A stretch of 43,719 bases of DNA from Pseudomonadota bacterium. Lineage in GTDB: Bacteria; Pseudomonadota; Gammaproteobacteria; Burkholderiales; Rhodocyclaceae. Position numbers and translations under genes: made by a program. The notes beneath the pieces were generated by a model. The model saw nothing but the letters and a program-made list of their open reading frames with translations, was not told where the DNA came from and ran no database searches. Positions within the stretch are counted from its first letter, which is position 1; every line of letters starts with the position of its first letter. Below are positions 7,820 to 17,484 of the stretch, in pieces. The stretch is from NCBI GenBank assembly GCA_018262285.1, contig JAGTRX010000042.1:1-43719 (forward strand), in the 5' to 3' direction.

Positions 7820-9025
7820 ATGGCCGATAAGGACGTCGCCAAACTCGGCCAGGTATTTACCCCACCGGCCGTTGTTGACGCCATGCTGCGCCTCCAACGC
7901 AATCAGGGTCGCGTACTCGAACCCGCCGCAGGCGATGGCGCCTTTTCCCGTCGCATCGAAAACTGCGTCGCCATCGAGCCGGATGCCCGGCACGCTCCGC
8001 CAGGCGCGCGAATCATGGATTTCTTCGCCTATCCAGAGAACAAGCGCTTCGCCACCATTATTGGCAACCCGCCTTACGTACGTTATCAGGACATCCAGCC
8101 GGAAACTGCCCTGCTCCTACGTTCAAAACTCTTCGACGGTCGTTCGAATCTCTATCTTTTCTTTATTGAAAAAGCCATCCGTCACCTCGAACCTGGTGGC
8201 GAACTGATTTTCATCACCCCGCGCGATTTTCTCAAGACCACTTCTTCAGTCAAGCTCAACCGCTGGCTCTACCAACAAGGCAACATTACCGACGCCATCG
8301 AGCTGGGCGACGCCAAAGTCTTCGACGGCGCCGTTCCCAATTGCCTGATCTGGCGTTTTGAAAAGGATCAGGTTTCACGTGAAACACGCTATGCCGAAAT
8401 AGGCTATGGCTGCGAACTCGCCCAAGCCTTGGCCAATCCACCTTGGCAGAACCGGATATTCACCGAGGCCAGCGGCCACTTGATGTTTACGCGCGGGGAT
8501 TACGGCCTGCATCTCCGCGATCTGTTCGCCGTCAAAGTTGGTGCTGTTTCCGGTGCCGATGACCTTTATGCCAGCCTGCCGGGTAACCGCAATTTTGTTT
8601 GCTCCGAAACCGCCACTACCGGCCTGACGCGTCAGATGCTCTGGCAAGCACCCGGTTCATCCAGGCCTGATCCCGCCCTATTGCCGCACAAGGAAAGGCT
8701 GATCGCCCGCCGTATCCGGCCTTACGACGAAAACAACTGGTGGCAGTGGGGTCGCGGTTACCCGGAAACCGATGCGCCCCGCATTTACGTCAATAACCGG
8801 ACGCGCCGGCCGCAGCCCTTCTTCCTGCATCCCTGCCCACATTTCGATGGCGCCGTATTGGCGCTTTTTCCGCACGACCCCAAAGCCAATCTCAAGAAAC
8901 TGTGCGCCGCACTCAACCAGATGGACTGGAACGAACTCGGCTTCATATGTGACGGCCGTTTCATCTTCACCCAGCGCAGCCTGGAAAACGCCCCCCTTCC
9001 CCTGAGCTTTGGCAACGCAGTGTAA
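7820..9025 (+). CDS. N6-adenine-specific DNA methyltransferase (TaqI/Eco57I-like)
   Basis: 401-residue class I methyltransferase of the gamma-type N6-adenine group. Visible: N-terminal GQVFTPPAVVDAML, SAM-binding motif I VLEPAAGDGAF (32-42) and catalytic NPPY (83-86). The remainder (about 230-400) would be the target-recognition domain. No restriction endonuclease or specificity subunit is adjacent, so it looks like an orphan methylase or the methylase of a dispersed system. Only 7 bp separate it from the hydrolase, yet no clear ribosome binding site precedes ATG 7820, so translation may be coupled. The frame also encodes parS site 2 (8371-8386). The target sequence is unknown. Confidence 0.85.
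   Translation: MADKDVAKLGQVFTPPAVVDAMLRLQRNQGRVLEPAAGDGAFSRRIENCVAIEPDARHAPPGARIMDFFAYPENKRFATIIGNPPYVRYQDIQPETALLLRSKLFDGRSNLYLFFIEKAIRHLEPGGELIFITPRDFLKTTSSVKLNRWLYQQGNITDAIELGDAKVFDGAVPNCLIWRFEKDQVSRETRYAEIGYGCELAQALANPPWQNRIFTEASGHLMFTRGDYGLHLRDLFAVKVGAVSGADDLYASLPGNRNFVCSETATTGLTRQMLWQAPGSSRPDPALLPHKERLIARRIRPYDENNWWQWGRGYPETDAPRIYVNNRTRRPQPFFLHPCPHFDGAVLALFPHDPKANLKKLCAALNQMDWNELGFICDGRFIFTQRSLENAPLPLSFGNAV
8371..8386. promoter_or_regulatory. parS: parS site 2 inside the methyltransferase gene
   Basis: GGTTTCACGTGAAACA matches the parS consensus TGTTTCACGTGAAACA at 15 of 16 positions, the mismatch being at the first base. It is read in the methyltransferase frame as part of a Val-Ser-Arg-Glu-Thr stretch. 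It is about 9.2 kb from the candidate oriC. Intragenic parS sites are common in other bacteria. Confidence 0.85.
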
Positions 9026-12366: not shown

Positions 12367-12566
12367 CCAGCAATTCTGATGATCCTGAAATAGCTGCGGC
12401 GACTACGCGCATGACGGGCGTTTCGGCCTTGCGCAAAATCCGCAAACTGGTGGACGAAGAAAATGCCAACGAGCACCTGAAAAGCCGGTGGGCGCCTCGC
12501 TTCATTGCTTTCACAGGTGTACTGCTTATTCTTCTGCTAACCTATTTTCTGCTGAAGTGGTTCTGA
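12363..12566 (+). CDS. Small tail-anchored membrane protein
   Basis: 67 residues, no recognised family. A charged soluble N-terminal part (about 1-45, with RMTGVSALRKIRKLVDEENANEHLKSRW) is followed by one hydrophobic helix (IAFTGVLLILLLTYFLLKWF, about 48-67) that runs to the C-terminus. It would sit in the inner membrane with its N-terminus in the cytoplasm. It overlaps the apbE stop by ATGA, so it is probably cotranslated and may assist ApbE or its target, by analogy with the small membrane partners of some flavinylation modules. Its last 41 bp overlap the end of the convergent rhomboid gene. Confidence 0.65.
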   Translation: MTSNSDDPEIAAATTRMTGVSALRKIRKLVDEENANEHLKSRWAPRFIAFTGVLLILLLTYFLLKWF

Positions 12567-13128
12567 GTAATCGAGCCATAACGATCCCGGCCACAAATCC
12601 GCCAAAATGGCTTTGCCAGGAAATACCCGCCTCCCCTGGCAAAACACCGAACACCATACCACCATAGAAAAATAGAACGCCAAAGCTAACAGCAATGGCA
12701 GAAAAAGTCCGTTCATACCAGCCGCGCAAGACCAGAAAACCGAAATACCCGAAGACAACACCACTGGCGCCAATGTGAACCGTTTGCCGCCCGCCGAGCA
12801 ACCAAGCTGCCAATCCAGCGCCAAAAATTGCAGCCAGCGTTACCAGCAAAAAACCTGAGATCCTCGGCCACAGGCAAAACCAGCCAAGCACCACCAAAGC
12901 GCCAATATTGGCGAATAGATGACTGAAACTGCCATGCAGCCAGGGCGCCATAATAACGCCCTCCAGGTGCCCAAAATCGCGTGGGAATACGCCAAAACGT
13001 CGCCAGCCCAGACTGAAAACCAAATCAACCGTGCTCATCAGCGCAATGCTGGCAACAAAAAACGCTAGAACCAAAACCCGAAGCTTAATCGGGCTTCCCT
13101 CTTTCGACTGATCGCCTGACACACGCAT
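12526..13128 (-). CDS. Rhomboid family intramembrane serine protease
   Basis: About 200 residues with six predicted membrane helices. Visible: the helix-2 motif WLHGSFSHLFAN (64-75), catalytic Ser122 in GASGVVFG (120-127) and His174 in QSHFGGFVAG, giving the Ser-His dyad. It cleaves membrane proteins within or near their transmembrane helices; the substrate is unknown. ATG 13128 is chosen because GAGG precedes it; a GTG six codons upstream (13146) is the alternative. Compact rhomboid proteins of this kind are often annotated rhombosortase-like, but no GlyGly-CTERM substrate is seen here. Transcribed after the CheX-like gene (23-bp gap) and convergent with the small protein. Confidence 0.85.
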   Translation of the reverse strand: MRVSGDQSKEGSPIKLRVLVLAFFVASIALMSTVDLVFSLGWRRFGVFPRDFGHLEGVIMAPWLHGSFSHLFANIGALVVLGWFCLWPRISGFLLVTLAAIFGAGLAAWLLGGRQTVHIGASGVVFGYFGFLVLRGWYERTFSAIAVSFGVLFFYGGMVFGVLPGEAGISWQSHFGGFVAGIVMARLLRTTSAENRLAEE

Positions 13129-13151
13129 TCCGCCTCGATCAGCCACAGCGC

Positions 13152-13841
13152 CTACATTCCAAGAGAGTCGAGCAGGTCGTCGTTGGCGTTTGACTGATTT
13201 TGCTGTGGCGCTGGTGCTGCTATTGGTTCTTTACTGGCCTGATCGATCAGGTCGTCAGGATTGGGGGCTTCCTGTGACTCGAAGTCATAAAGTTTGATGA
13301 ACTCGGTTCGATCAACAGCCAGTTCAAGGTAAAAAATGTTGTTGCGGCCGGTAAAAAAAGTAACGCGCCGACCCTCTGGATTATCCAGATTGGTATCCAC
13401 ACTCAGCATGACCTGCTTGTTGAGAACCAGCATTTTCGGCTGGTTCTGCGTGATATGGGTCTGCAGTTCGCGCCCAACTTTGCCCGTGAAATCACCAACA
13501 ATCTGATTCATCAGTTCGCCCATGACGTTGTTAACATCATCCGAAGTATGGGAACTGGCCAGGTGTTCCAGCGGCATGCCCATATTGAGCATATAACTCT
13601 CGTAGAGTTCCATGGCGGACTGAGCCGAGAAGTTGATAATCACGAGTCCTGAAAAACCGCCGTCAAACAACACGAAGCAACCGATATCGGGCTTGAGACA
13701 GGTTTTGGTAATACGCTGTACCATGCCGGAATAATGGATATTGCTACCGGTCGCCGCAGTCAGAACCTTGGTCACCGAGTTGCACAGACTGACCAGAAGA
13801 TCCTCAGTACCAAATACAACGGAGTTTTTTTCATTGCTCAT
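13152..13841 (-). CDS. CheC/CheX-like phosphatase-motif protein (possibly DUF3334)
   Basis: 229 residues, about the size of the uncharacterised family I recall as DUF3334. Read directly, residues 109-135 match the CheC/CheX/FliY phosphatase signature: Glu109-x2-Asn112, then exactly 22 residues, then Pro135. The -4 position is Asn rather than Asp/Ser. The surrounding GELMNQIVGDFTGKVG resembles the CheX catalytic helix. The C-terminus is low-complexity, acidic and Gln-rich, ending DDLLDSLGM. If active, it would dephosphorylate a receiver domain. It starts 12 bp after the gyrB stop (ATG 13841; a GTG at 13850 is the alternative), so it is probably the last gene of dnaA-dnaN-gyrB transcription. 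Function is inferred from the motif only. Confidence 0.7.
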   Translation of the reverse strand: MSNEKNSVVFGTEDLLVSLCNSVTKVLTAATGSNIHYSGMVQRITKTCLKPDIGCFVLFDGGFSGLVIINFSAQSAMELYESYMLNMGMPLEHLASSHTSDDVNNVMGELMNQIVGDFTGKVGRELQTHITQNQPKMLVLNKQVMLSVDTNLDNPEGRRVTFFTGRNNIFYLELAVDRTEFIKLYDFESQEAPNPDDLIDQASKEPIAAPAPQQNQSNANDDLLDSLGM

Positions 13842-13853
13842 GATGGACACCGT

Positions 13854-16358
<2,505 letters not shown>

Positions 16359-16377: not shown

Positions 16378-17484
16378 TTAGATACGCATTGGCATGACAA
16401 CATACTTGAATGAATTATCATCAGGTATTGATATCAGTGCGCTTGAACTGGCATCGTTAAAACTCCACTGCACGTTTGGCGTGTGAATGTTGTTCAAAAC
16501 ATCGAGCAGGTAGCTGACGTTAAAACCAATATCCAGCTCGTCACCCTGATAAGCGACTTCCATTTCTTCCTGCGCTTCTTCCTGTTCGGCATTGGCAACA
16601 ACAATTCGCAGGCTGTTATTGCCAATCACAATACGAACACCACGGAATTTCTCGTTGGTCAGAATAGCGGCTCGAACCATCGACTGCATCAACACCTGAC
16701 GATCAAAAATCAGGTGATGTTGCAAGCTGGCCGGGACAACGCGCTGGTAGTCGGGAAACTTGCCATCGATCAACTTGGAAACCAATACGATCGATCCAAA
16801 AGTAAATCGTACCTGGTTGGCCGTAAAACAAATATTCAGAGGTTCATCGTTGTCCATCAGAAGACGATTCAGTTCCAGAACCGTCTTGCGCGGCAAAATA
16901 GCTTCCTGACGCGGATGTTCTTCGCTAATCGCCATGCAGGCATAGGCCAAGCGGTGGCCATCTGTCGCTACGGCCCTTAATTCCTTGCCTTCCAGGAGGA
17001 GCAACAGTCCATTCAGATAATATCGGACATCTTGGGCTGCCATGGAAAACTGCGTTTTGGCCAGGAGCTTTTTGAAATCCCCCTGTGTCACGTTGAGTTC
17101 GCGCGTTTCACCTTCCGAAATGGTCATCCTAGGGAAATCGTTGGCCGCAAGTGTCTGCAAACTGAAGCGGATCTTGCCAGATTTAACGACCAGTTTATGC
17201 TCTTCCAAGGCTAGACTGACTTCGGCATTTTCTGGCAACAAACGCAAAATATCCTGAAGCTTGCGTGCTCCAACCGTCGTGGCACCATCGTTGCCTTCTC
17301 CGGCATCGGTCATGGCGGTGGTGACCTGAATCTCAATATCGGTCGCCAGAAAAGTCAGGCAACCGGCTTTTCGTTCAAGTAAAACATTGGAAAGAATGGG
17401 CAGGGTATGACGTCTCTCGACGATACCGGATACGGATTGCAAAGGTTGCAGCAACGTATCTCTCTGGGTCTTGATAAGAATCAT
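16378..17484 (-). CDS. dnaN: DNA polymerase III beta sliding clamp
   Basis: Processivity clamp, a ring-shaped homodimer that tethers DNA polymerase III and binds many partners. 368 residues, the usual length, made of three similar domains. It begins MILIKTQRDTLLQPLQSVSGIVERRHTLPILSNVLLE, contains ATDGHRLAYA and KTVLELNRLL, and ends with the conserved YVVMPMRI. Start ATG 17484 has AAAGGAA about 9 nt upstream. Separated from dnaA by a 197-bp AT-rich spacer and followed by gyrB after 46 bp. Confidence 0.98.
   Translation of the reverse strand: MILIKTQRDTLLQPLQSVSGIVERRHTLPILSNVLLERKAGCLTFLATDIEIQVTTAMTDAGEGNDGATTVGARKLQDILRLLPENAEVSLALEEHKLVVKSGKIRFSLQTLAANDFPRMTISEGETRELNVTQGDFKKLLAKTQFSMAAQDVRYYLNGLLLLLEGKELRAVATDGHRLAYACMAISEEHPRQEAILPRKTVLELNRLLMDNDEPLNICFTANQVRFTFGSIVLVSKLIDGKFPDYQRVVPASLQHHLIFDRQVLMQSMVRAAILTNEKFRGVRIVIGNNSLRIVVANAEQEEAQEEMEVAYQGDELDIGFNVSYLLDVLNNIHTPNVQWSFNDASSSALISIPDDNSFKYVVMPMRI

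Follow-up and report, generated by a model that had tools for sequence, protein, structure and literature searches.

A member of the DUF3334 family (PF11813) is encoded directly behind gyrB in the window, i.e., the whole 43,719-nucleotide stretch of DNA analyzed here. This protein is probably a phosphatase of phosphorylated CheY (CheY-P) that combines a CheX-type catalytic domain with a CheZ-type tether and operates alongside CheZ; we infer its activity, its substrate and the binding by its tail. Assignment as a predicted CheX-type phosphatase is well supported by sequence comparisons and by the modeled fold. CheY-P is taken as the substrate because the protein retains the catalytic Glu and Asn and ends in a CheZ-type tail, and conservation of this tail points to the ordinary chemotaxis regulator CheY. 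With somewhat less assurance, we propose that DUF3334 represents an unrecognized and widespread class of CheY-P phosphatases of the Pseudomonadota, in which a CheX-type domain and the tail of the unrelated phosphatase CheZ may have been brought together by capture or convergence, and that both phosphatases of a cell, which differ in fold, would compete for one face of CheY. The features of the window are listed in Table 1.

Table 1. Positions of the DUF3334 gene, its predicted parts and its neighbors in the window.
Feature	Position	Strand	Basis
DUF3334 (PF11813) gene, predicted CheX-like phosphatase	13152..13841	(-)	229 aa; Pfam
Predicted CheX-fold domain, about residues 12-177	13311..13808	(-)	AlphaFold2 model; VIA-align to 1squ over model residues 11-177
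Catalytic signature Glu109-x2-Asn112-x22-Pro135	13437..13517	(-)	111/111 distinct full-length frames
Variable linker, about residues 181-220	13182..13301	(-)	Lowest conservation in the alignment falls here
C-terminal CheZ-type tail DDLLDSLGM, residues 221-229	13155..13181	(-)	CheZ-only PSSM; comparison with CheZ peptide
Rhomboid-family gene, close downstream neighbor of the DUF3334 gene	12526..13146	(-)	Pfam Rhomboid
gyrB, upstream neighbor	13854..16355	(-)	Pfam
dnaN	16378..17484	(-)	ORF; place between dnaA and gyrB plus sequence; congener tblastn hits there
dnaA	17682..19094	(-)	Pfam Bac_DnaA

Family Membership, Predicted Fold and Catalytic Signature

The best Pfam match of the window protein was DUF3334 (382.4 bits against a cut-off of 25.2, E = 1e-114), and positions 2-226 of the 226 in this profile were matched, which makes the protein a full-length member of the family. 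Residues 54-130 also matched Pfam CheX (PF13690) with 37.9 bits (cut-off 27), a match that covered only positions 2-69 of the 94 in that profile. All 49 members of alignment A1 (i.e., the window protein and 48 of 80 named relatives) matched Pfam CheX at E <= 0.001, and the DUF3334 gene passed the CheX cut-off in all 20 genomes searched, which were chosen from the 46 DUF3334 genomes known at that stage. The CheX likeness is therefore implicit in public databases already, given that the Pfam CheX model hits DUF3334. The NCBIfam scan of the window protein gave no match, no CheZ domain (PF04344) was among its Pfam matches at E <= 1, and neither CheX nor CheZ was returned by the PDB sequence searches, whether the query was the entire protein, its last 38 residues or the family profile.

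The AlphaFold2 model built from A1 as a single chain had a mean pLDDT of 61 and a pTM of 0.60. In this model Glu109 and Asn112 are carried by a long helix (residues 100-125), residues 126-153 are below 50 pLDDT with Pro135 poorly placed, and confidence in the tail is low. The first match found by Foldseek was CheX of Thermotoga maritima (1squ; E = 5.3e-7); the top eight rows were CheX or CheC-like, and the probability was 1.00 in 30 of the 50 rows shown, which were chains of CheX, CheC, FliY, FliM or the flagellar rotor. Alignment to 1squ with VIA-align gave a Z of 16.8 and an rmsd of 2.6 over 150 residues. A Z of 14.8-16.8 was reached by eight CheX or CheC-like entries and one of 9.9-11.5 by the next group (FliM, FliY and CheC), and the remaining rows were at or below 4.3. 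The match of the predicted fold is specific to CheX despite the modest confidence of the model.

The ORF, the residues Glu109, Asn112 and Pro135, Asn105 at position -4 and the 12 bp behind gyrB are all as the original prediction had given them. The signature is also more than a chance resemblance, since the protein passes the Pfam cut-offs of both DUF3334 and CheX and all 111 distinct full-length DUF3334 frames from all fetched loci keep E-x2-N-x22-P. In an alignment of 104 relatives that includes the window protein, Glu109 and Asn112 were 99% conserved and Pro135 100%, and the sole sequence without the Glu/Asn pair was a fragment (L086). The sets used for the tail (121 proteins), the signature (111) and the alignment (104) differ, as they were filtered in different ways from successively larger sets of loci. 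With the Pfam CheX match, the CheX-like predicted fold and the conserved Glu and Asn, the CheX-type phosphatase originally read from the spacing of three residues is borne out at the level of prediction.

One part of that signature did not stand. Five canonical CheX proteins from DUF3334-bearing genomes have 18 residues between Asn and Pro (columns N98 and P117), so that the x22 spacing of DUF3334 is not a strict CheX mark. These five proteins also have Asp at position -4. Asp or Ser at this position is a mark of the CheC/CheX signature, and the window protein has Asn there; for this reason it is called CheX-like and kept out of CheX proper. Asn at -4 was found in 104 of the 111 DUF3334 frames and Asp in seven, and Asn is thus the usual state of the family. 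When DUF3334 and the five canonical CheX were compared with hhalign, Glu and Asn were paired in the right register, with a probability of 0.84% and an E of 0.066 that are not significant.

In CheX-type enzymes, an acidic residue and an Asn reach with their side chains into the active site of the receiver, where the Asn orients the attacking water (PMC3035606). Glu109 of the window protein would pair with the active-site Lys of the receiver, and Asn112 would position a water molecule for attack on the aspartyl phosphate.

The Linker and the CheZ-Type Tail

DUF3334 resembles the CheX/CheC/FliY phosphatases in its predicted fold, its E-x2-N pair and its Pfam CheX match. Unlike CheX, it has about 50 additional C-terminal residues, which form a linker and a CheZ-type tail. 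Of 104 proteins examined, 101 showed both marks, and in 100 of these the domain end lay 38-48 residues from the tail; in the 104-relative alignment a conserved end, [D/E]xLLxSLGM, follows the poorly conserved linker. The window protein ends with NANDDLLDSLGM, and the CheZ peptide crystallized on CheY (2FMF) is QDQVDDLLDSLGF (PMC5760072). The final nine residues of the window protein (DDLLDSLGM) and of the CheZ peptide (DDLLDSLGF) are identical at 8 of 9 positions.

With a PSSM built from CheZ tails alone, 118 of 121 DUF3334 C-termini outscored the best of 11,340 other ORF C-termini, a background drawn from every ORF of the DNA that was fetched, spurious ORFs included. The PSSM was made from seven distinct CheZ tails, selected by the CheZ core motif and an end in [SAQ]LGF, and is a fairer test than an earlier tail motif, which was written with the DUF3334 tails already in view. 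DUF3334 accordingly carries, as far as its sequence goes, the C-terminal tail that is characteristic of CheZ. Three tails failed the PSSM, i.e., those of L085 and L086, which end in FLxDLDI, and that of L230, which is truncated. L085 and L086 (genomes G218 and G317) are the DUF3334 members of one family, f101, in another order, and their tails have diverged; the gene of G317 is broken by in-frame stops, and the CheZ search of this genome found none, while CheZ of the genome of L085 ends in DDLLSSLGF. L230 (G923) lacks the tail that is retained in congeneric G853, G960 and G990, and its loss is either a natural truncation or a sequence error.

The last residue of the tail is usually Met, Ile or Leu in DUF3334 and is Phe in CheZ. 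In a set of 14 genomes from other orders, the DUF3334 tail did not co-vary with that of the CheZ encoded beside it in each genome's repertoire. In all 14, CheZ ends in LLSSLGF; their DUF3334 proteins end in LLDELGI in ten genomes and otherwise in LLNELGL, LLSELGL or FLANLGL, with that of G923 truncated.

According to PMC7750401, CheZ of Escherichia coli consists of a four-helix bundle, a linker (residues 169-199) and a C-terminal helix (residues 199-214), and in PMC1447658 this helix is described as the main source of affinity for CheY-P. DUF3334 is similar to CheZ (PF04344) in its putative C-terminal helix of the CheY-binding type on a linker, and differs from it in the catalytic fold.

The linker of about 40 residues would be flexible, and the short helix at its end would imitate the helix by which the C-terminus of CheZ binds CheY. 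The short helix would grip CheY, presumably on its alpha4-beta5-alpha5 face, and the tail would thereby deliver CheY-P to the catalytic domain, such that the DUF3334 protein would end the flagellar signal jointly with CheZ.

The new part would be the CheZ-type tail, of which no description was found in the literature searched. Neither DUF3334 nor PF11813 was named in the open literature searched; most subscription papers lie outside this search, and a prior description is possible. Similarly, no description of such a protein was found in the accessible portions of the literature on CheX plus CheZ and related terms. If the proposal is correct, a domain of unknown function in many CheZ-bearing bacteria gains a function and a partner that can be tested, a tether known from one phosphatase fold can serve again on a different fold, and a second, hidden route switches off CheY-P, in which case models of chemotaxis that count CheZ alone are incomplete.

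Distribution and Genomic Context

The class sample (369 genomes) contained five genomes with DUF3334, the order sample (150) four and the family sample (150) 41; the 14 control genomes had none. Within the Pseudomonadota, the taxa included many betaproteobacterial genera, Aeromonas and several other families of the class. A search of plasmid records returned a single record, a 4.9-Mb sequence of Aeromonas caviae. In the phylum sample (398 genomes), DUF3334 was present in 20 genomes and CheZ passed its cut-off in 148, i.e., in 20 of 20 genomes with DUF3334 vs. 128 of 378 without it (Fisher, 1e-9, with kinship ignored; 9 genera). The association inside the family sample was weak, with CheZ over the cut-off in 38 of 41 genomes with DUF3334 vs. 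89 of 109 without it (p = 0.07), and the three DUF3334 genomes without CheZ were 85, 86, and 52% complete. In both samples the DUF3334 and CheZ searches were taken as the same draw of genomes, as their genome handles and numbers agree. The window's genome has CheZ and, as read by eye, CheA. It also encodes a separate canonical CheX of about 155 aa without the tail (L187 on contig C217 of G000), so that three candidate CheY-P phosphatases are present in this genome.

In G232, DUF3334 follows, on the same strand, flhF-fleN-fliA-cheY-cheZ and a single GspE-like gene (identities assigned by reading the sequences). This was the only neighborhood informative for function; flhF, fleN, fliA, cheY and cheZ were absent near DUF3334 at the other 117 of 118 loci. 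At L027, a CheA-like match with 43% identity lies about 9 kb from DUF3334. Shared neighbors were rejected as a guide to function, as no neighbor family occurred in more than nine of 87 loci, a count made with crude ORF calls in which some strands are wrong. Among a further 20 loci, the DUF3334 gene was found in 15, seven of which (genus g439) have neighbors in common; by eye, these common neighbors include no chemotaxis genes.

Alternative Explanations and the Linkage with gyrB

The genomes already have CheZ and would not obviously need a second enzyme, which counts against the reading of DUF3334 as a CheY-P phosphatase. The protein might instead act, as a CheX-type phosphatase, on a receiver different from flagellar CheY, such as that of a second chemosensory pathway or of a response regulator, with the tail binding that receiver. 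Hosts that already possess CheZ, a further CheX match over the cut-off in 7 of 20 DUF3334 genomes searched and the lack of common gene neighbors in most genomes examined are in line with such a partner. We nevertheless consider it rather unlikely, given that the tail almost matches that of CheZ, a known partner of CheY, and that CheZ is present in every one of the 20 phylum-sample genomes with DUF3334. It is less likely still that the tail binds CheY while the protein serves mainly as a sink for CheY-P or as a scaffold (e.g., at the motor) and not as an enzyme. FliM shares the fold, its middle domains belong to the group of fold matches that ranks next after CheX, and the five canonical CheX have Asp where DUF3334 usually has Asn; yet Glu and Asn are present in every one of the 111 frames, and the structures of CheX score well above those of FliM. 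There is very little probability that the tail likeness is convergent and unrelated to CheY, e.g., that the tail marks the protein for degradation or makes contact with its folded domain. The likeness extends over nine residues only, two members of one family have diverged and one protein is tail-less, but the tail has the residues of CheZ in the same place, i.e., the extreme C-terminus past a variable linker, all other ORF C-termini score below the 118 DUF3334 tails, and the remainder of the protein is CheX-like independently of the tail.

The original prediction went beyond phosphatase activity and proposed a device that couples replication (dnaA-dnaN-gyrB) with two-component signaling, which we now regard as scarcely credible. 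It arose from the position of the gene, which is separated from the gyrB end (13854) by 12 bp on the same strand, with dnaN and dnaA farther upstream, also on this strand; the ORF starts with ATG at 13841, and an alternative in-frame GTG lies nine bases upstream (13850). Co-transcription of DUF3334 with gyrB is likely in the window species and is uninformative on the role of the family. At 118 loci from elsewhere, no gyrB, dnaN, dnaA or rhomboid gene was found near DUF3334 (E <= 1e-12, >38% identity, more than half of the query). These loci are not independent (e.g., L120 and L004 are the same contig, as judged by length); upstream sequence amounted to 1.5 kb or more at 110 of them, and 94 had 3 kb or more on either side.

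The genus is represented by four genomes, including that of the window. Three of them have DUF3334, which lies beside gyrB in neither of the two other carriers. In G647 (L144), the genes gshA-gshB-apbE-rhomboid-gyrB-dnaN-dnaA are arranged as in the window, with DUF3334 missing there and located on another contig instead; in G610, some 297 kb separate DUF3334 from gyrB. No DUF3334 match was found in G556, where gyrB is cut by the contig end. The simplest reading is a one-off move of the DUF3334 gene behind gyrB in the window's lineage. An assembly artefact is an unlikely cause of the linkage because both flanks keep the gene order of G647 and a single match was found in the window's genome. No difference between the window protein and the rest of its family was found, and its place behind gyrB is unique among the loci examined.

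Two additional observations concern the surroundings of this gene. In G647, as judged by eye at the junction, the rhomboid gene directly adjoins gyrB with a short intergenic gap, and the window has one gene inserted there. Farther along the window, a gene for an Eco57I-type DNA methylase (7820-9025) is located directly ahead of gshA in surroundings that otherwise consist of glutathione-synthesis genes, and the two ORFs overlap as called.
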